Below the pieces are notes generated by a model, which did not search any database, was not told the DNA's origin, and saw nothing but the letters and a program-made list of their open reading frames with translations. From assembly GCA_008360975.2 (NCBI GenBank), contig CM039202.1, forward strand, positions 4,722,128 through 4,786,127: 64,000 nucleotides of DNA. The letters run 5' to 3'. Position 1 is the stretch's first letter; every line of letters starts with the position of its first letter. Below are positions 50,948-64,000 of this stretch, in pieces. This stretch comes from Lichenostomus cassidix (lineage: Eukaryota > Chordata > Aves > Passeriformes > Meliphagidae). The position numbers were made by a program, and so were the translations under genes.

Positions 50948-51019
50948 GCCGTTTTTCACCAATTCTTCCTTATTTTGAGTGTTACCTCAGGGGGGTTGCA
51001 GCTTCAGTGCTTTTCTGGG

Positions 51020-51457
51020 ATGGGGGAGCCCAGTGGAGCCAGGGTGGTCCCACAGCCCTCTGGGGTCCTGGAGACACCGGGGATACTGAAGCCTCCAGAG
51101 GTCCTGGAGCCCTCAGTGACCTCACAGCCCCCAGGGGTCCCACAGCCTCCAGAGGTTCTGGAGCCCCTGAAGGTCCCAGAGTCCTCAGGGGCCTCACAGC
51201 CTCCAGAGGTGCTGGAGCCCCCAGGGGCCTCACAAGCCCTGGGGGTCCCACAGCCTCCAGAGGTTCCGGGGGTCCTGCAGCCCACGCCGCCCCCCGAGGT
51301 GCTGGAGGAGCTCCTGAGTCAGCGCTTCGGGCCCCTGCCCTGCCCGGCCACCATCACCCGCCTGCGGCGTGGCCCTGACGGCAGGTACGAGCCCACCGGA
51401 GACCTGGCAGAGGTGCTGGAGCGGCGGCAGGCGGCCAACGCCAAGGAGAGAGAGAGG
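51020..51457 (+). CDS. FIGLA: FIGLA exon 1 with coding minisatellite
   Basis: 146 codons. PPEVLEP begins at residues 25, 43 and 61 (a PPEVPG variant at 79), a strict 18-residue period. It is followed by [17 protein letters not shown], which is the conserved FIGLA block. The exon ends in the basic region AANAKERER before donor GTGAGG. The starting frame is open upstream to 50975, but the first ATG in it is 51020. Confidence 0.88.
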
Positions 51458-54061
51458 GTGAGGGATCCCAGAACGTACTGAAGCCCCCCCCAGATCACAC
51501 GCTGGGGGCTGTGTCACATTGTGGTGGCACCCAGGGCTGCTCTAGGTGGGGACCTAGAGGTAGCACAGAGGCAGTGCTACCACAGGGGTGCTCGGAGGGA
51601 GGACTTTGGATTTGGGGGGAGGGGTTAATCCTGGGGGACCACAGCTAAATTTTAGGAGGGCCTGGTTTAGTCCTGTGTTGATCATCTTAATCCTGGGGGG
51701 CTCTGGTTAAATTTTAGGAGGGCTGAGTTTAATTCTGAAAAGCCCAGTTTGATCCTGGGGTAGAGGGGTTTGGTTTAATGCAGTGAAGTCTAGTTTAATC
51801 TTAGGAACCCCAATTCAATCCTGAGGGACACAGTTTAATTATGGGATCCCAGTTTAATCCTAGAGGGGTTGGTTTAATCCCAAGCACCCACATTTTATTC
51901 TGGGGTGGTCCAATTTAATCCTGGAAGGGGACACTTTAGTTCTGGTAAACCCAGTTATATCTAGGAGGTGCCAGTTTCATTCTAGAAGGGCCACAGTTAA
52001 ATTCTGGTCTCAGTTTAATTCTAGGAGGGCCATGTTTAGTCCTGGTGAGCCCAGTTAAATCCTAATTTAAAGGCCCCATTTTAACTCTAGGAGAGCCCAG
52101 ATTAATCATGGAAGGGACTGGTTTAATTTTGGGGTTCCAGTTTTAATTCTGATATGGGGCCTAGTTTACATTTGGGGAGCCCAGTTTTATTCTCAAAGCA
52201 TCCAGTTTAATTCTAGGAGGTCTGGGTTTAATTCTGGGGAGCCCTGTTTAAACTTGTAAAGGCCCCAGTTCAATCTTGCAGAGTCCAGTTTAATCCTGGA
52301 GACCCCAGTTTGAGTCTATGAAGGACCAACTTTAGTTTGGAGGGGTCAGTTTAATTCTGAGGGGACCCCAGTTTTTATTCTGGTGGGTCTGGTTTAATCC
52401 TGGTGAGCCCAGTTGAATCCTGGGGGGTTCCCAGTGTCATCTTGAGGGATCCCAGTTTGATCCGGGGGGGGGTCTTGGTCTAACTCAGGGCTCTTGGTGT
52501 CCCCTCGTGGCCTCTAAGAGGGTCCCTTTGGGGTTCCCCCTCGGTTTCTAACCATGTCGCCTCAGAGTCCCCCTCGGTCTCTAACTGGGGTCCCTTTGGG
52601 CTCCCCTTTAAGTCTCTGACTGGGTCCCCGGGGGTCCCTGTGTCCTGCAGATCCGGAATCTCAACAGTGGCTTCTCCCAGCTCCGGACACTGGTACCGCT
52701 GGTGCCGCGGGACCGCCGGCCCAGCAAGGCCGACACGCTGCGGGCAGCTGCCCAGTACATCCGCCTGCTGCGGGAAGTGCTGCAGGATGCGGGGGGCTGC
52801 CAGGTGGGTATCCCAAAACTGCCTCCTGAAACACCACCCTGTTGTGGGATGCAGGGGGCTGCCAGGGGGGGTACCCTAAAACTGCCCCCTGATTCCCCCA
52901 ACCCTCCATAATGTAGGATTTGGAGGTGCTGATGGAGGTTTTGTTGCTATTTTTCATAATAGAATTAATAATTCAATTTATTTTTAAATACAATTACGTT
53001 TTGGCAGGGCACCCCAGAACTTATAATTGGAATTTTGGGGGGATAATAGGGATTTTTCTTGTGATTTTTCAGGTTGTAATTTATAATTCAATTCATTTTT
53101 AATAATGTTTTTGTGGGGCACACCAAAACTGACCCCTAGTCTCCAGCCCCCCTTATAATCTGGAATTTGGTGGGACTGATAAGGGGGACACCTGGTTGGG
53201 GATGGGACACGTAGAGGGGGGGACAGATTTCTTCCAATTTCTTCTGATTTTTCAGTTTGGAATTCAGTATAAGATTAACAATAAATATAATTATTGGGGG
53301 GGACACCCCAAAATTTACCTCCAACATCCTGGGACTCCAAAACTGACCCTCCACTTTCAAATTTCTCTATTGTGTTGGGATTTGGGGAGGCTCATGAGAT
53401 TTTCCTTGATATTTTTCTGCTTGAAATGAATTTAATAATCAAAAATAAATTGAATTATTATTTGAGGAGGGACCATAAAACTGACTCCCACCTCTGGGGA
53501 CCCCAAAACAGTCCCCACTCTTCCTGACCTCCCCTATAATGTCGGCTTTGGGGGATTTTTATTCTCATTTTTCGGGTTGGAATTAATTTAAAAATTAAAT
53601 TGAATTGTTATTGCGGGTAAGCCCCAAAACTGACCCACAACCCCCCTATAATGTGGGGGCTTATGGGCCTGGTGGGGATGTTCCTGCTTGAAGTTTTTGA
53701 GGTTAAAATTAATTTAATAATTAAATTGAATTCTTTGGGAGGTGGTTGTTATTATTGGAGGGCCACCCCCCAGTTTTAATATATTTTTAAATTCCCTTTT
53801 TCCCAGGAACTCAACAGGAGCAGGAGTTGGAGGGACACTGGGGGGATGTCCCGGGGGGGGCCGCCTGAGACCTGGCCTGGCAGTGTCCCCACATGCTCAT
53901 GGGGACCCCGTGCTCCTGCCCCCCCACCCTGGGGCACTGCCAAAGAGTGGGGGGATGGTGAGTGGGGGGCACCCCGACGGGGTCGGAGCACCCTGGGAGT
54001 GGGGGGAGGCACCAGGGGGTGGAACACCCTGGCAATAGAGGGGAGCTCTGGGTGGGGATAG
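51020..54061 (+). CDS. FIGLA: FIGLA, folliculogenesis-specific bHLH factor (3' end uncertain)
   Basis: Oocyte transcription factor that pairs with E12-type bHLH proteins at E-boxes of zona pellucida genes. Exon 1 (51020-51457) and exon 2 (52651-52803) join in phase 0. They give the basic region [13 protein letters not shown] and helix-loop-helix [29 protein letters not shown] and [14 protein letters not shown]. The segment [10 protein letters not shown] before it matches the FIGLA-specific N-terminal block. The N-terminus is about 80 residues longer than I recall for human because of an 18-residue tandem repeat. The start ATG at 51020 has G at -3 and +4. The last exon is not recognised: a candidate starts at 53807. 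Adjacency to ADD2 on the same strand supports the assignment. Confidence 0.87.
51092..51289 (+). repeat. FIGLA: 54-bp coding minisatellite in FIGLA
   Basis: Three full 54-nt units (51092-51145, 51146-51199, 51200-51253) and a partial one. The core is CCTCCAGAGGTCCTGGAGCC with one to three changes per copy. The period is a multiple of three, so frame is kept. Confidence 0.9.
51590..52490. repeat. Minisatellite filling FIGLA intron 1
   Basis: Roughly 900 bp of degenerate 20-30 bp units built on CCAGTTTAATCCTGGGGG. Occupies most of the 1.2-kb intron. Confidence 0.92.
52651..52803 (+). CDS. FIGLA: FIGLA exon 2 (helix-loop-helix)
   Basis: 51 codons from acceptor TCCTGCAG to donor GTGGGT. Helix 1 [18 protein letters not shown], loop [11 protein letters not shown], helix 2 [18 protein letters not shown]. 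The invariant lysine-hydrophobic start of helix 2 (SKADTLRAA) is present. The end of this exon and its donor are duplicated 62 bases downstream. Confidence 0.9.
52785..52895 (+). repeat. Tandem duplication of FIGLA exon 2 end plus splice donor
   Basis: GGATGCGGGGGGCTGCCAG at 52785 spans the exon end. GGATGCAGGGGGCTGCCAG recurs at 52847, followed by a donor-like GGGGGGTACC and the same CCTAAAACTGCCCCCTGA downstream. The period is 62 bases. The second donor is mutated. Confidence 0.85.
52904..53770. repeat. Tandem array of 120-245 bp units in FIGLA intron 2
   Basis: Each unit has TATAATGTGGGATTTGG, a TTTTTCAGGTTGGAATT stretch, AATTTAATAATTAAATTG and CACCCCAAAACTGACCC. Starts are near 52909, 53154, 53369, 53535 and 53651. 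The TTTTTCAGG parts mimic splice acceptors. Confidence 0.8.
53807..54061 (+). CDS. FIGLA: Candidate FIGLA 3' exon
   Basis: Strong acceptor CCCTTTTTCCCAG ends at 53806. In the phase required by exon 2 the frame runs [13 protein letters not shown] and on to TAG at 54059-54061. A donor GTGAGT at 53958 could instead splice onward. A second AG at 53816-53817 would give the short acidic end [16 protein letters not shown] with TGA at 53866. I cannot match any version to the FIGLA C-terminus, so this is tentative. Confidence 0.3.
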   Translation, partial: ELNRSRSWRDTGGMSRGGPPETWPGSVPTCSWGPRAPAPPPWGTAKEWGDGEWGAPRRGRSTLGVGGGTRGWNTLAIEGSSGWG

Positions 54062-55724: not shown

Positions 55725-56490
55725 ATGCTGGGCTGTGCCCGTTGCTCCCATGGCTGAGCCAAGCTGTGCCCGTTCTCGGCTCCTATCAGGTGCACCAAGT
55801 GGTTCCCGTTCTCAGCCACCACCCCACTGGTGCCCCCAGCTGTGCCTGTTCTTGGCCACCACCCACATCAGTGTGTTGAGCTGTGCCCGTTCTCAGCAGC
55901 CTCTCCCATTGGTGCACTGCGCTGGGGCCGTTCTCATCTCCCATCAGTGCACTGAGCTGTGCCCGTCCTCAGCCGCTGCTCCCAGCGGTGTGCCAAGCTG
56001 TCCGTTCTCAGCTCCCACTGATGCACTGACTCATGCATGTTCTCAGCTGCCGCTTCCATTGGTGCACTGAGCTGTGCCCGTTCTCAACTGCTGCGCCCAT
56101 TTGTGTGCTGAGCTGTGCCTGTTGTCAGCCCCCGCTTCAACTGAACTGTGCCTGTTCCTGGCTGCCATTCCCATTAATGTGCTGAGCTGTGTCTATTCTT
56201 GGCACCTGCTCCCACCCGTTGGTGCACTGAGTTGTGCCTGTTCTCAGTTGCTGCTGCTCCCATCGGAGCATTCACTGAGCTGTGTCTGTCCTCAGCTCCC
56301 TGTCCCCCTAAGTGAACCCCAATTCTCAGCCGGGGATCCCATTGGTGCACTGAGCTATGCCCGTTCTCGGCTGCTGCACCTATCAGCGCACTGAGCTGTG
56401 CCCGTTCTCAGCCGGGGATCCCTTCAGTGCACTGAGCTATGCCTGTTCTCAGCTCCCATCAGTGCGCTGAGCTGCGCCCGTTCTCAGCTG
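55725..56490. repeat. Minisatellite of GTGCACTGAGCTGTGCCCGTTCTCAG type
   Basis: About 770 bp of degenerate 40-45 bp units. Each has TGCACTGAGCTGTGCC, a GTTCTCAGC core and a CTCCCAT-type tail. The same core reappears in ADD2 intron 7 (about 61436-61515). Confidence 0.92.
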
Positions 56491-56901: not shown

Positions 56902-59900
56902 GTGAGCCCCCGGCCCCAAGCTGGCCCTCCTGTCCCCAGCCCCATTCCTCTCTTGTCCCCAACACCATCCCTCCTGCTCCCAACCCCGTTCTGCCTGTCC
57001 CTAATCTCGTCCCACCTATACCCAAAGCCTGTTCTTTGTGTCCCCAGCCTCTTCCCTTGCGTCCCCTAACCCATCCCTCCTGGCCCCAACCCCAGCTCTC
57101 TTGTCCCTGGCCCCATCCTTTGTTGTCCCCGCCCTATCCCTCCTGTCCCCAAGCCAATAGATGTCACCGCATGGTGGTGCATGTCCCCACCTGGCAATGT
57201 CACTGCCAAGGTGCAGCTGTCACTGAGCTGCCAGTGCCACTGCTGCCACTGTGCCAGCAAACCAGTGGTGTCACTGACATCAAGACGGTAATGCCACCAT
57301 CACCGTGCCACCAGTCTGGTCGTGTCACCATCACTGCGCCACCAAGCCAGTGGTGTCACTGACACCAAGATTGTAATGTCACCATTGCCGTGCCACCAAG
57401 CTGTCAATGTCATTGCCACCAAGCTGGTGATGCTGGCACCACCACTGAGCTACCAAGCTGTCAGTGCCACTGACACAAAGTCAGCAGTGCCACCAATCAC
57501 CATGTCACCAAGCTGCTGGTGTCACTGATACCCAGCTAGTGGTGCCACTATCACCATGTCACCAAGCTGGTGGTGCCACCATTGTCAAGGCAATGATGTC
57601 CCTGACACCAAACTGCCAGTGCCAGCATAACCGTGCCACCAAGCCAGAGGTGCCACTTCCACTGAGCCGGTGATGCTGGCCCCTGCCCCAATGTCCCCAA
57701 CGGTCCCATCCACCCCGTTGTCACCTTGTCCCCCGTGCTGCAGTCCTTCCGGGAGGAGCTGGAGAGCCTGATCCAGGAGCAGATGAAGAAGGGGAACAAC
57801 TCATCCCATGTGTGGGCACTGCGGCAGATCGCTGACTTCATGGCCACCACATCCCCCGCTGCCCTGCCCACCTCCCCCATGGGTATGTAGGGCTGGGGAT
57901 GGGATGGTTTGGAAACACTCATGAGGGGTTTAATTGAGGGGGATGGGGTTGGAAAACCCCCAAAATCTTGAGGGCCACCAAATCTTTGAGGGGCACCAAA
58001 ACCTTGGGAACTCCTAAAATTCTGGGGGTCACCACACCTTTGTGGCTTTGGGAATCATCAAACTTTTGGGGCCACAAAAACCTCTGGGACCTTCAGGGGC
58101 ATCAAATGCTTTGGGGCCACCAAACCTTTGGGACCTTGAGGACCCCGAAAACCCTTGGTGTCATCAAACCTTTAAGGCCTTTGGGGCCCACCAAACCTTG
58201 GGAGCCCCTAAACTTTTGAGACCCTGGGGACCCCCAAACATTTAGAATCATCAAATCTTTGGGACCTTTGGGATCTTGGAGTGCTACCTAACACCTGGGA
58301 ACCCCCAAACCCTTTAAGGACCCCCAGATCTTTGAGGCCATCAACCCTGGGGGACCACCAAACCTTTGAGGCCTTGGGGACCCCCTAAACCTTTGGAGCC
58401 ACCAAACCCGTGGGGCCTTGGGGATCCCTAAAACCTTTGGGGCCACCAAACCTTGAGGTCCAGCAAACCTTTGGATCCATCAAACCTTGACAGTCACTAA
58501 ACCCATTCCCACAACCATCTGCTTCCCTGTCCCTAGTAAGCCCCCGTGGTTTGGGGGGTCCCACCGCTGACAGGGGGTTCTTGATCCCCAGGGCTGGCAT
58601 CTGTCACCCCCATTAATGACCTGCACGGGACAGAGGGGCCGGTGCTGGCCAAGGGCGAGCGGCTGATGCGCTGCAAGGTGGGCAGCATCCACCGGCTGCT
58701 GGATCTCTATGGCTGGGCACAGCTGGGACATGCCGCTGTCACTGTGAGCACTCCAAAACCGAGATGGGGGAGCTGGAGTTGTTTTGGGGGCGTTTGAGGG
58801 GGATTTGGGGTTGTTCTGGGGGGATTTGTGGGGACTAGGGGGCTTTTGGGACCTGCTGGACCTATACAGGCTGGTCACAGCTGGGGCACATCATGTCACT
58901 GTGAACACCCCAGAACCCCTCTGGGGAGCTGGGGGATTGTGGAAGTTGGGGGAGGTTTGGGGTTGTTTGAGAGGGATGTTGGGGACAATTGCAGTTATTT
59001 TGGTGGAATTTGATGTTGTTTGGGGGTTTGGGACCTGCTGGAGCTGTATAACTGGGCACATCTGGGGCACACCCCTGCCACAGTGAGCACCCCAAAAACA
59101 GCACAGAAGGGCTGGGGGCTTTGTGTGAGTTGGATGTGTTTTGAGGGGAATTTGGGGTTTTTTAATGGTTTTAGGAGGGCTTGAAGTGTTATAGTTATTT
59201 TGGGAGAGGATGGGGAGGTTTTGGGACCTGCTGGACCTGCACAGCTGGGGCACATTCCATCACTGTGAGCACCCCAAAATCGGAACAGTGGGGATTGGGG
59301 AGTTTAAAGGGGATTGGGGGTTCTTTTGGGGGGATTTGGATGGAACTGGGAGGACTGCGACCTGCTGGAGCTGTGCAGCTGGGCACAGCTGGGACGTGCT
59401 GCCATCACCACGAGCACCCCAAAACTGGGATGGTGGGACTGGGGGGCTTTAGAGGGGTTTGGGGGGATTTGCATTAGTTTTGGGGGGTTGGGGAAATTCG
59501 GAGTGTTTAGGGGGGAATTGGGGGTTTTGGGGACCTGCTGATCCTGTATAATTGGGCACAGGTGGGGTACACTTGCAACACCATCAGCATGCTGGACAAG
59601 GGGGATTGGAGGGTTGGGTGTGTTTGGCAGGGTGCTGGGATTCTGGGAAGGTTGGGGGTTTTGGGGGGGGCGAGTTGAGGGAGTTCACTGAGGAAATTTG
59701 TGGTTTTTTGGGGCATGAGATTTTGGATTGGGGGTGGATGTTTTGGAGTTTCTTTTGGGGCAAGATGTGTTTCTGGAGGTTTGGGGAATTTTGGATGTCT
59801 TGGGTTTGGGAGGTTTTGGGGGGTTCTAGGAATTGGGGTTCTTTGGGGGGAATCTGAGGGTTTTATTGTATTTTGGGAGGGTTGGGAGCCTCTAAGATGG

Positions 59901-62900
59901 GGATCTTAGAGGGGTGCTCATGGTTTGAGAGCTTCTGAAGGATTCTGGAGTCTTGGGGTAGGTTGGAATTTTGGGGGGGAGTTCGCGGGGGTTGGAGATT
60001 TTGAGGTTATTGTTGGGTTCCTTCAGGGTGTTGGTTTGGGGTTTTTTTTTAATGGTTTGGGTGTGATTGGAGGGGTGTGGGGGTTTTGAGGTGGTGTTTA
60101 TTCGGGGATTTTTTCATCCCCCTCTGTCCCCTGGCAGCTGCGGGTCAGCAAGGAGCAGGAGCACTTCTTGGTGGCCCCGCAGGGGCTAGCGTGCAGTGAG
60201 GTGACAGCGGCCAGCCTGGTGAGCCTCCCGCATCCCTCCCCGGGGCTGCCTGGTGGGGAGCAGCCCCCCCTGAGCCCCCTGTGCCCCCCAAGGTGAAGGT
60301 GAACGTGCTGGGGGCCGTGGTGGAGCAGGGCAGCACCGGCTTTGCCCCCGATGCCCGCAGCTTTAGCCTGCACGCCGCGATCTATGCCGCACGCCCCGAC
60401 ATCCGCTGCATCGTGCGCCTGCACACCCCTGCTGCTGCTGCTGTACGGGCTGGAAACACCAGGGACCAGGGGTTTGGGGGGCCAGGGGATTTGGAGTATC
60501 TGGGGGAGTTGGGGGCCTTTGGGGGAAGTTGTGTTTGGAGGGGAATTTGGGAGGTTGGAAGAGTGTTTTGGAAGGGTTGGAGAATTTGGGGTTTGTGGGG
60601 GGTTGGGTTTTTTGGAGGGGTCAAAGGGAACTTGGAGATTTGGGGCGGGGCTGAGAAGGACTTGGGTTCCTTAGGAGTTTTAAGAACTTTGGGGGATTTG
60701 GGGGCATTGGGAGCTTGGTGGGGACAGGAGGGTTTGGGGTGATCGGGATGATGGGAGTTTCTGGGGGTTTGAGGCTTTTTGGGGCAGTCCATTTTTGGGA
60801 GCATTTTGGAGTTTGTGAGATGGATGGTTTTGGGGAATTTAGGAAGTTGATTTTGGGGGAATTTGATGGGCTTGGAGGAGTTTGGGGGGTTGGGGAGTTT
60901 TGGGGAGCTTTCTTTAGGGGTTGTGGGTTTTTTGGAGAGGAGTTTGGGAGGTTCTTTGGAAGGGTTGGGGTTTTTTTGTGGGGGTGGGGGTTTTTTGGGG
61001 TCTTGGTGGTTTTTGGGTGTGTTTGGGGTTCCCCCTGCCCTGTTCTCCGCCCATGCCCAGGTGTCAGCCATGCGCTGCGGGCTCCTGCCCATCTCCCGCG
61101 CCGCCCTGCTCCTGGGGGACATCGCCTACTTCGACTTCCGTGGGGAGGTGGAGGACGAGGCCGATCGTGTGGAGCTCCAGAAGTGCCTCGGGCCCACCTG
61201 CAAGGTGAGGGGCACCTGGGGGGATGCGGGTGTCACCCCACCATCCCCTGCCCGCCCTGCTGACATCCCTCATGGGTGCTGCAGATCCTGGTACTGCGGA
61301 ACCATGGGGTGCTGGCGCTGGGGGACACAGCTGAGGAGGCTTTTTACAGCATATTCCACCTGCAGGCAGCCTGCGAGGTCCAGGTGAGTGCAGGGCATGT
61401 GATGAGCTGCATATGGGCTCAGCAACCTGTGACAGGTGCATGCACTGAGCTGTGCTGGTTTCAGCCTGCCCCCGGTGCCCCAAGGCTTTGCACTGAGCTG
61501 TGCCAGGTCTCAGCCCCCCGGTGCCCCCGTGTGCCAGCACTGTGTCTGAGGGCAGCCGTGGGGCTCCCGCGCGGTGCCCCAGCTCAGCGGTGCCTGGTGC
61601 CCATGCAGGTGTCGGCGCTGGCAAGTGCGGGTGGCGCAGAGAACCTGATCGTGCTGGAGCGGGCCCAGCAGCGCGTGCCCCACGGCCTGGGCGCCGTGCG
61701 CCGCGCGGGCACCACCTTTGGGCCCCTGCACAAGAGCCGCCTGGGCGAGCACGAGTTCGAGGCCCTCATGAGGATGTTGGATAACCTGGTGAGCGCCAAA
61801 ACCCGCCCAATCCCCCAAAATGAGCTCCAACCCCTCGGTTTATCCCTGTGTTCCTGACTCCCTGCTCTGTTCTTTTCCAGGGATACCGGACGGGCTACAC
61901 GTACCGCTACCCCTTCGTGCAGGAGAAGAGCAAGCCCAAGAGTGACGTGCTGATCCCTGCCACCGTGACGGCCTTCGTGTTCGAGGAGGAGCCCGCTGGG
62001 ACCCCTGCCCTGCGCCAGCACGCCCAGAAGCAGCAAAAGGAGAAAACGAGGTGGCTCAACACCCCCAATACCTACACCAAGGTCAACCTGGCTGAGGAGC
62101 TGCAGGGCAGTGCTGGCGGCCAGAGGACAAAGACCACGGTGAGGGGCAGATGGAGCAAACAGGGGCTTGGGGATCAAAAACCAAGGAAGTGGAGGGTGTC
62201 CTGGTTATTGATCCCACTGAAATCTGGGGTGTAGGAAGGCCCAGGCATCCACTTTCACTGTGTAATAATGATTATTTTGAAATGCCACCACCCCATTCGA
62301 GTGGGGCTGAGTGCCACTGGCTTTATTGGGATATCCCCTCTCTGCAAGATGCATTTACTGGGGTTTCCTCTCATTTATTGGGGTCTCCCTCTATGCAAGA
62401 TACATTTATTGGGGTGTCCACTTTATTATGAGGGTCCCCCCTCTACATAAAATGCTTTTCTTGGGGTCTCCCCTTTATGGGGCTCTCCCTTCTACGCAAG
62501 ATGTGTTTATAAGGGTCTCCCCTCTATTACTGGAGTTTCTCCCTTGTGCAACATGCATCTTTTGGAGTCTCCCCTCTCCATTGGGGATCTCCCTGGTTTA
62601 TATTGTGTTTCCTCTCTATTATTGAGATCTCTCTTCTACACAAGTTGCATTTAGTGGGGTCCTCCTTCTATTATTGGGTTCTCCTCCTTCCCAAAACACC
62701 TTTCCCGAGTTTCCCTTTGTGGCCCCACAGTGGCTGCGAGCAGACGAGGTGGAGAAGGGCAGCAGTGGGACCCCAATTCGCATCGAGAACCCCAACCAGT
62801 TTGTGCCGCTCTACACAGACCCACAGGAAGTGCTGGAGATGCGCAACAAGGTGGGCCCTGAGAGCTGGGGTGGGGCTGGGGACAGGGGGGTCTCGGCATG

Positions 62901-64000
62901 CAGGGGGGGTTTATCCCCTTGGAGGGGGATTTATCCCTGTTCTCACCCACAGATCCGAGAGCAAAACCGCCAGGACGTGAAGTCAGCCGGGCCCCAGTCA
63001 CAGCTGCTGGCCAGTGTCATCGCTGAGACCAGCCGCAGCCCTGTATGGCACCTGTGTCACCCTGCATCCTCAAACCCTGCATCCCCAGCCCCGTGACACC
63101 CCATGTCCTTGCTAATGCCAGCCCATGTAACCAGATGTGACAGTCACACCCCAGCCACAGCTGCTGGCCAGTGTGATCACTGAGACCAGCTGGAGCCCTG
63201 TATGGCACCCATGTCACTCCATGTCCCCAGCGCTCTGTCCACAGCCCATGTCACCCTGTGTAAACCCACGTCCCCAGCCCCATATCCCCCTGTTTTTCCA
63301 GTCACAGGAGCTGACCAGTGTCATTGCCAAGACCAGACACAGTCCCATATGGCACTCATGTCACCCTGTATCCTCACAGTATCCCCAGGACAATATCACC
63401 CCATGTCACCTCTTGTCCCAAGACCCACATGCCCAGCCCCAAATCCCCCTTCCCAGAGCACCCAGCCTTTCCCTGGATCCCCAGCATTCCACAGGTCCGG
63501 GGGCAGTGACACCACTCCGAGGGCAGAGGGCACACTGCTCCGGGGGCGGCACTGCTCCAAAGGGGTTGACACTGCTCGGGGTGAGGGATGGGGGGGTTGA
63601 CACAGTTCCAGAGGGGGTGACACCACTCTGGAGGGGTGACACCTCTCCAGGGGGCGTTGACACTGCTCCAGGGGAGTGACACCACTCTGGGGGTCTGTTT
63701 CAGTCTACCGAGAGCCACTTAGGGGATGCAGAGGCCAAGGAGGGCCGGAAAGAGGCTCCCCCCGAGCCAGAGCCCCCCAACCCCTTCAGCCAGCTCACAG
63801 ACCAGGAGCTGGAGGAGTACAAGCAGGAGGTGGAGAGGAAGAAGCATCTACAGGGTAGGAGAGACACCCCAAAATCCCCACACATCCCCGGGTTGCTTTG
63901 AGGGGACCCCAGACCAGCATGTCTCTCTGTGGCAGGCGAGAAGGATGCAACAGCAGAGGACAGGGGGGCTCCCCCGCCCGAGCCACCGCCCCCGGAGCCG
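56725..64000 (+). CDS. ADD2: ADD2, beta-adducin, 5' thirteen coding exons (3' part outside window)
   Basis: Caps actin barbed ends and recruits spectrin to actin at the membrane skeleton, notably in erythrocytes and neurons. Coding exons: 56725-56901, 57744-57882, 58592-58743, 60138-60218, 60293-60442, 61061-61204, 61285-61383, 61609-61788, 61881-62138, 62731-62850, 62953-63042, 63704-63854 and 63936 onward. They give about 602 residues. Recognised segments: [49 protein letters not shown] and [20 protein letters not shown]. The aldolase-like head spans about residues 130-385, then the neck, then the start of the tail. Alpha- and gamma-adducin (ADD1, ADD3) are less likely given FIGLA next door and the N-terminal sequence. 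The MARCKS-related end is beyond the window. Confidence 0.95.
57160..57690. repeat. Minisatellite in ADD2 intron 1
   Basis: About 530 bp of units of roughly 27-30 bp containing CCACCAAGCTGGTGGTGTCA and CTGACACCAA. Confidence 0.9.
57744..57882 (+). CDS. ADD2: ADD2 coding exon 2
   Basis: 139 nt. Reads [20 protein letters not shown], then [20 protein letters not shown]. Ends with one base of a split glycine codon before GTATGT. Confidence 0.93.
57955..58520. repeat. Minisatellite in ADD2 intron 2
   Basis: Degenerate 28-33 bp units around CACCAAACCTTTGGGGCC and TTGGGGACCCCC. Confidence 0.88.
58592..58743 (+). CDS. ADD2: ADD2 coding exon 3
   Basis: 152 nt. Reads [35 protein letters not shown] and [12 protein letters not shown], the entry to the adducin head. 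Donor GTGAGC. The last 48 bases and the donor recur, degenerate, five times in the following intron. Confidence 0.94.
58696..59600 (+). repeat. Tandem array derived from ADD2 exon 3 end plus donor
   Basis: The exon segment CTGCTGGATCTCTATGGC starts at 58696. Copies start at 58853, 59035, 59228, 59362 and 59535 (steps 157, 182, 193, 134 and 173). Copies 1-3 keep a GT donor followed by GAACACCCC or GAGCACCCC; copy 4 has ACGAGC and copy 5 has lost it. Inter-copy sequence is G- and T-rich and also repeated. Confidence 0.9.
59601..60120. other. G/T-rich remainder of ADD2 intron 3
   Basis: Runs of GGGG and TTTT alternate (for example TTTTGGGGGGGGCGAG), with no exon. Similar sequence fills intron 5 (60443-61050). 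Confidence 0.75.
60138..60218 (+). CDS. ADD2: ADD2 coding exon 4
   Basis: 81 nt, phase 0 at both ends. Reads [20 protein letters not shown], then EVTAASL. Part of the aldolase-like head. Confidence 0.93.
60293..60442 (+). CDS. ADD2: ADD2 coding exon 5
   Basis: 150 nt. Reads [20 protein letters not shown], then [20 protein letters not shown] and TPAAAA. It ends in a (GCT)4 run and uses a weak donor, GTACGG. The intron before it is only 74 bases. Confidence 0.9.
60443..61060. other. G/T-rich ADD2 intron 5
   Basis: Dense GGGG/TTTG clusters without exon content. Strong G-quadruplex potential on the sense strand. Confidence 0.7.
61061..61204 (+). CDS. ADD2: ADD2 coding exon 6
   Basis: 144 nt. 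Reads [20 protein letters not shown], then [19 protein letters not shown] and QKCLGPTCK. Head domain. Confidence 0.94.
61285..61383 (+). CDS. ADD2: ADD2 coding exon 7
   Basis: 99 nt. Reads [20 protein letters not shown], then [16 protein letters not shown] is the position of an aldolase-type metal-site histidine motif; adducins are not known to be enzymes. Confidence 0.95.
61436..61515. repeat. Two copies of the upstream ADD2 minisatellite core in intron 7
   Basis: TGCACTGAGCTGTGCTGGTT and TGCACTGAGCTGTGCCAGGT, each followed by TCAGCC, match the 55725-56490 array core. Confidence 0.75.
61609..61788 (+). CDS. ADD2: ADD2 coding exon 8
   Basis: 180 nt. Reads [20 protein letters not shown], then [20 protein letters not shown] and MRMLDNL. 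End of the head domain. Confidence 0.95.
61881..62138 (+). CDS. ADD2: ADD2 coding exon 9
   Basis: 258 nt. Reads [20 protein letters not shown], then [36 protein letters not shown] and GGQRTKTT. Neck region, involved in oligomerisation and actin-spectrin activity. Confidence 0.95.
62139..62730 (+). repeat. ADD2 intron 9 with TATTGGGGTCTCCC-type tandem repeat
   Basis: From about 62320 to 62700, units of roughly 35-50 bp contain GCAAGATGCATTTATTGGG and GTCTCCCCTC. The first 180 bases are unique. Confidence 0.75.
62731..62850 (+). CDS. ADD2: ADD2 coding exon 10
   Basis: 120 nt. Reads [20 protein letters not shown], then [20 protein letters not shown]. Start of the tail. Confidence 0.95.
62953..63042 (+). 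CDS. ADD2: ADD2 coding exon 11
   Basis: 90 nt. Reads [20 protein letters not shown], then [10 protein letters not shown]. Donor GTATGG. Its 3' half and the donor region are repeated twice downstream. Confidence 0.94.
62995..63380 (+). repeat. Tandem array derived from ADD2 exon 11 end plus donor
   Basis: The exon 3' half is followed by copies at about 63152 and 63300, steps near 150 bases. Copy 1 reads [16 protein letters not shown] and keeps the GTATGG donor and a CACACCCCAG acceptor-like end. Copy 2 reads [15 protein letters not shown], has TGTTTTTCCAG before it, and has lost the donor (CATATGG). Confidence 0.9.
63480..63690. repeat. Minisatellite upstream of ADD2 exon 12
   Basis: Units of about 22-27 bp with TGACACTGCTCCAGGGG or TGACACCACTCTGGGGGG. 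Confidence 0.85.
63704..63854 (+). CDS. ADD2: ADD2 coding exon 12
   Basis: 151 nt. Opens [20 protein letters not shown], then [20 protein letters not shown] and KKHLQ. Acidic tail segment conserved in beta-adducin. One base of a split glycine codon precedes GTAGGA. Confidence 0.94.
63936..64000 (+). CDS. ADD2: ADD2 coding exon 13, truncated by window end
   Basis: Acceptor TGTGGCAG ends at 63935. Reads [20 protein letters not shown] to the window edge. The rest of the tail, including the basic MARCKS-like end, is not in view. Confidence 0.9.

Follow-up and report, generated by a model that had tools for sequence, protein, structure and literature searches.

Copies of two exon ends and their splice donors in introns of ADD2 in Lichenostomus cassidix: probable exon stuttering, old and decayed

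The DNA analysed here, referred to below as the window, is a stretch of 64,000 nucleotides from the passerine Lichenostomus cassidix (assembly GCA_008360975.2, contig CM039202.1, positions 4,722,128 to 4,786,127), and all coordinates are given relative to its first base; a single haplotype was analysed. A 12-exon gene model, open over 580 codons, was identified in this 64-kb window as ADD2: the predicted product matches the Pfam domain of class II aldolases and adducins, its best match in the PDB is the solved beta-adducin (3.2e-281), and bird beta-adducins match it over the whole query at up to 96% identity among the best 120 of 6201 matches, the set used for all protein comparisons below. 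The closest models among the matches listed are those of passerine birds. Coding exon 3 is located at 58592..58743 on the + strand and is followed by the authentic donor GTGAGC (58744..58749, +), which is in phase with exon 4 at 60138. The assignment to ADD2 exon 3 and its donor, already made in the first-pass annotation of this DNA, is thus supported by the gene model and by the PDB and protein searches alike.

The last 48 bases of exon 3 (58696-58743) are the source of an array on the + strand (58696..59600), which consists of the source unit and five copies with G-rich spacers between them. Copy 1 (58853..58906) comprises an exon part at 58853-58900, 79% identical to that of the exon, and a donor remnant (GTGAAC) at 58901; copy 2 (59035..59088) has its exon part at 59035-59082 (77%) and a GTGAGC donor at 59083; copy 3 (59228..59270) has lost 11 bases of the exon part (59228-59264; 78% over 37 aligned bases) and carries GTGAGC at 59265. 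The donor has been lost in copy 4 (59362..59415, ACGAGC; exon part 59362-59409, 79%) and in copy 5 (59535..59588, ATCAGC; exon part 59535-59582), the latter being 60% identical to the exon part and 80% identical to copy 2 over 51 bases. All five copies lie on the + strand and start with CTGCTG, followed by the exon end, the donor or its remains, intronic sequence and a G-rich spacer; the intronic stretch resembles GAGCACCCCAAAA and is clear in copies 1-4 and worn in copy 5. Successive units are spaced by 157, 182, 193, 134 and 173 bp, and the exon parts of the copies are 66-86% identical to each other. The five-fold recurrence of the exon end and its GTGAGC donor, as described in the first-pass annotation, was therefore confirmed for degenerate copies (0 of 200 shuffles). 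A GT is indeed retained in three of them (copies 1-3), the full GTGAGC in copies 2 and 3 only; the first GT had been placed correctly at 58901, while the other two, given as 59085 and 59276, are located at 59083 and 59265.

When the whole coding sequence of exon 3 was aligned to intron 3, the best local score was 49, compared with a dinucleotide-shuffle maximum of 29 (0 of 200 shuffles reached 49), and the last 56 coding plus 22 intronic bases scored 66 (shuffle maximum 25; 0 of 200). In an iterative local search limited to scores of 30 or more, copies 1-4 came up and copy 5 did not; the latter was recognised because of its 80% ungapped identity to copy 2 (51 bases) and its place in the series. 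The outcome that would have spoken against the array, an identity between exon and copies no higher than that of shuffled sequence, depends on the method: gapped alignment clears the shuffles, whereas blastn-short does not, giving a single match that stops 16 bases short of the exon border and whose 24.3 bits were also reached by the best of 50 shuffled intron sets.

A second array, absent from the first-pass annotation, was found in intron 11, where the end of coding exon 11 (62953..63042, +) and its donor are present twice more. According to the gene model and blastn-short, its source is 62992-63042, with the donor GTATGG at 63043. Copy 1 (63149..63205, +) has an exon part at 63149-63199 that is 90% identical over 51 bases (61.9 bits) and an intact GTATGG donor at 63200; copy 2 (63298..63352, +) has its exon part at 63298-63346 (local score 79; 30.2 bits in blastn-short) and has lost the donor (ATATGG). 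The blastn match of exon 11 reaches the exon border exactly (distance 0), and the alignments extend through the donor in both arrays. An anchoring of the array at the exon edge, proposed earlier for exon 3, fits these observations, the exon 11 array having the same geometry. The latter is probably the younger of the two and would have arisen in the same way.

The two sides of the introns were compared over the whole gene with 100 shuffles per side; only introns longer than 150 bases were used, which excluded 4 of the 11. Two of the seven donor sides are copied (z 22.6 and 34.6) and none of the seven testable acceptor sides, so that acceptor-side copying was discarded; the remaining 12 sides have z values between -0.8 and 1.4. 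Across 264 exon-by-intron-by-strand comparisons, both strong matches are sense-strand matches and fall in the intron adjoining the exon from which they derive. Exons 2 and 6 also match intron 6 weakly, with scores of 30 and 26 where the best of 100 shuffles reach 27 and 25, respectively; as chance alone would produce two or three excesses of this kind in that many comparisons, these matches were not considered further. These same weak matches, which also just beat their 100 shuffles, and the noise-level result of blastn-short for exon 3 are what could be cited for chance similarity or an assembly artefact. Such an origin is extremely unlikely, considering that the real scores of both arrays top all 200 dinucleotide shuffles in each of five tests, that the two copied sides stand so far above the other 12, and that copies diverged by 14-40% over the exon part would be unlike assembler repetition.

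The nine bases that precede exon 3 copies 1 to 5 are, in order, TTTTGGGAC, GTTTGGGAC, TTTTGGGAC, GACTGCGAC and TTTGGGGAC, and exon 3 itself has CATCCACCGG (CACCGG) before the same point. This shared junction points to one founding tandem duplication with a breakpoint inside exon 3, which all copies would have inherited and which would have been followed by amplification and decay; separate copying of each unit from the exon is disfavoured by it. The spacers resemble each other as well, which suggests that whole units were copied: four of the ten spacer pairs exceed the top z value (2.6) reached in 35 control comparisons and a fifth is level with it at the printed precision, so that five or six of the ten are not above the controls. 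The array may accordingly have begun when about 157 bp, comprising the 3′ end of exon 3, the donor and the intron start, were duplicated in tandem; the copy would then have been amplified to five units within intron 3 by slippage, fork repair or unequal exchange. Replication slippage, the mechanism considered in the first-pass annotation, is plausible, and slippage, stalled-fork repair and unequal exchange are each possible. The units would subsequently have decayed while coding selection held exon 3, the same process would have produced a second, younger array at exon 11, and the nearest, authentic donor is presumably still the one used. G-richness alone does not explain the seeding, because intron 5, with a GC skew of 0.68 compared with 0.52 in intron 3, nevertheless has no exon array.

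A form of bird genome instability named exon stuttering, or sequence stuttering, was described in chicken in February 2026, mostly on dot chromosomes (190 of 236 introns) (Hron et al. 2026, PMC12954441). According to this report, the exon part measures 20-187 bp (median 36) and is present in 1-44 copies (median 4), cases were screened for in the neighbouring intron with a blastn-short cut-off of 42.1 bits, and Tandem Repeats Finder located simple repeats in the stuttered introns “in the majority of cases”. No other paper using either phrase was found in a literature search, and neither ADD2 nor adducin is named in the main text of the report, its supplementary gene list aside (PMC12954441). 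The ADD2 arrays share with the chicken cases, as these are described there, a bird gene in which the lateral part of a coding exon and its splice site are repeated in imperfect tandem in the next intron, an intact coding sequence, an exon part and copy number within the published ranges, and other introns that are rich in repeats (PMC12954441). They differ from the published account in the species, a songbird, in the gene, and in affecting donor sides only, and the exon 3 array is more diverged than the chicken example, which is under 20% from its consensus (PMC12954441).

The exon 11 array passes the published cut-off with copy 1 (61.9 bits; copy 2 reaches 30.2), whereas the exon 3 array, at 24.3 bits, falls below it because it is too diverged, and would not be listed by the published screen. 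This cut-off is described here as a detection limit and not as part of the definition; judged from its sequence, the exon 3 array falls under the stated definition and can be described as a putative decayed member. Taken together, the ADD2 arrays resemble exon stuttering that took place long ago and has since decayed. We consider it very probable that the exon 3 array is an old tandem array seeded by the exon, which was amplified and then decayed, with a second case at exon 11 and no likely function. Such a reading would extend stuttering from chicken to a songbird, where a conserved cytoskeletal gene would be affected at two separate places. It also indicates that there are decayed arrays invisible to the published screen, so that the process may be older and wider than reported. 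Moreover, the arrays offer a natural test of how one among several near-identical donors is chosen.

Regarding the age of the exon 3 array, the difference of 21.5% corresponds to a Jukes-Cantor distance of about 0.25 and the passerine rate is about 3e-9 per site and year, which would place the array at tens of millions of years. At codon positions 1, 2 and 3, exon 3 differs from the copies at 17/75, 11/77 and 30/76 sites. This excess at third positions could be read as synonymous drift of the exon, the copies retaining older states; however, a control comparison of the copies with each other (29/141, 35/148 and 48/144) is also highest at position 3, although less strongly, and the third-position reading is suggestive only and was not used as support. 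The first base of a Gly codon of the exon is A in all four copies that have this column, the alignment of copy 1 being ambiguous there, and 115 of the 120 ADD2 proteins (best 120 of 6201) have LYGWAQ at this site.

Donor strength was scored with an approximate donor matrix, which gave 1.3 for the authentic exon 3 donor and -2.5, 1.5 and 1.3 for those of copies 1-3. By the same matrix, the three weakest of the 11 ADD2 donors are those of exons 3, 5 and 11 (58744, 60443 and 63043), all with T at -1, and two of these three exons (3 and 11) bear arrays, a coincidence based on two arrays. Read-through past exon 3 would meet a stop at 58795, after 17 codons. The copied donors might then act as functional decoys, as the first-pass annotation had proposed, competing with the weak exon 3 donor so that an unproductive transcript would tune ADD2 output; the donors of copies 2 and 3 are no weaker than the authentic one by this measure, and both array exons are among the three with the weakest donors. 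We regard this as quite unlikely. The donor has been weakened or lost in three of the five exon 3 copies and lost in one of the two exon 11 copies, which is unlike maintenance, and of 98 GTs in intron 3, six equal or exceed the score of the authentic donor with this matrix, four of them not being copied donors. Among the 120 ADD2 proteins (best 120 of 6201), exon 3 continues as LRV or MRV in 108 and otherwise in eight, four being unreadable; four of the eight start with VR and then run on into further sequence. A second exon 3 end was found in none of the 120 proteins with four mismatches per ten residues allowed, although unproductive transcripts would be invisible in such a set.

At exon 11, copy 1 has an AG before it and the intact GTATGG after it, which together delimit a stop-free segment of 45 bases in phase 0, and the exon 11 copies could serve as, or become, alternative exon sequence in passerines. 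In seven of the 120 models (best 120 of 6201), Val directly follows SRSP, as if the GT of the exon 11 donor had been read through, and in one of these, the Junco model P0113, the frame continues past exon 11 across intronic sequence and reaches a second exon 11 end 36 residues later. Both this Junco copy and exon 11 copy 1 of the window have VIT in place of VIA, which suggests common descent, although the CpG base concerned may have changed twice; the repeat spacing at exon 11 would differ between the two species (108 bases suggested by the Junco model versus 157 here). Nevertheless, an exonised role for these copies is very unlikely. The Junco and SRSP-Val evidence consists of gene models only, a search with the Junco region gave Junco itself and a Copsychus model covering 39%, with no second model containing both ends, and a search with the open frame over both exon 11 copies yielded 157 candidates, none of them a relative (no E value of 10 or less). 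Furthermore, the donor of copy 2 has been lost.

A bolder proposal would be that exon edges with weak donors are preferred seeds of stuttering, beyond dot chromosomes too, and that the copied donors take part in splicing. It is motivated by the weak donors of both array exons, by the restriction to donor sides, and by the passerine models that read into the intron or a copy. If true, unproductive splicing or new exon sequence would originate from the arrays; we consider this proposal unlikely. Most likely, neither array has a function, and the exon 3 array would be a neutral relic.

Tandem repeats at splice donors have been described in other genes. In man, ABCA7 intron 18 contains a polymorphic VNTR of 12 to about 427 units, the 25-bp unit of which starts with the donor GT (PMC5954066). 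As in ADD2, the repeat is located at a donor, and some ABCA7 transcripts use a copied donor that lies one unit further along; in contrast to the ADD2 arrays, the unit as published has no reported coding bases and an effect on splicing was shown (PMC5954066). The contrast with ordinary intronic minisatellites drawn in the first-pass annotation, namely that these do not carry coding sequence and splice sites, was consequently too strong, with both exon stuttering (PMC12954441) and the ABCA7 repeat (PMC5954066) in print. The tandemly repeated IFI6 (6-16) minisatellite likewise lies at the end of an exon and provides several donors, but there, according to the source cited, the downstream units act as donors in productive transcripts (PMC4526556). 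GC-rich introns of bird genes have been reported to be filled with tandem repeats with G-quadruplex motifs, a make-up shared with ADD2 introns, although that account, as far as it is cited here, does not mention copied exon edges or donors (PMC6792250). The G-quadruplex-type clusters found on the sense strand number three in intron 3 and two in intron 5. The unit of the IFI6 minisatellite (Turri et al. 1995) is said to be much shorter than those of ADD2.

Of all intron bases in ADD2, 32% lie in tandem repeats, and Tandem Repeats Finder covers 5% of intron 3, 8% of the exon 3 array and 51% of intron 11. GC skew changes along the gene (57883-61060), with a C-rich intron 1 (-0.32), an intron 2 near zero and G-rich introns 3 and 5 (0.52 and 0.68). 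A degenerate array of units of about 52 bp (CTTTATGGGGGTCTCCCTCTACGCAAGATGCATTTATTG) is located in intron 9 (62321-62594). Another unit, resembling GCACTGAGCTGTGCCCGTTCTCAGC, is common to intron 7 (61442-61518) and an array 5′ of exon 1 (55866-56490), which are more than 5 kb apart (score 43 versus a maximum of 34 in 200 shuffles); this sharing is not strictly local, whereas stuttering, as published, is local (PMC12954441).

A search of plasmids gave nothing, and a search of viral contigs gave eight pattern matches, none of them a relative. FIGLA-like reading frames, judged by eye, are present at 51000-52820, and one of two strings sought for the FIGLA exon ends was located. FIGLA is a neighbour of ADD2 in other vertebrates, and chicken ADD2 is on chromosome 22, which is not a dot chromosome; no paper on FIGLA with ADD2 on this chicken chromosome turned up in a literature search. 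A repeat with periods of 18 and 54 bp is located at 51090-51264. Over the window as a whole (1-64000), GC content is about 41-50% within the initial 13 kb and higher thereafter, mostly 52-68% apart from a few lower 1-kb bins, and tandem-repeat cover climbs from 1% to 27% (8-kb bins) toward the ADD2 end.
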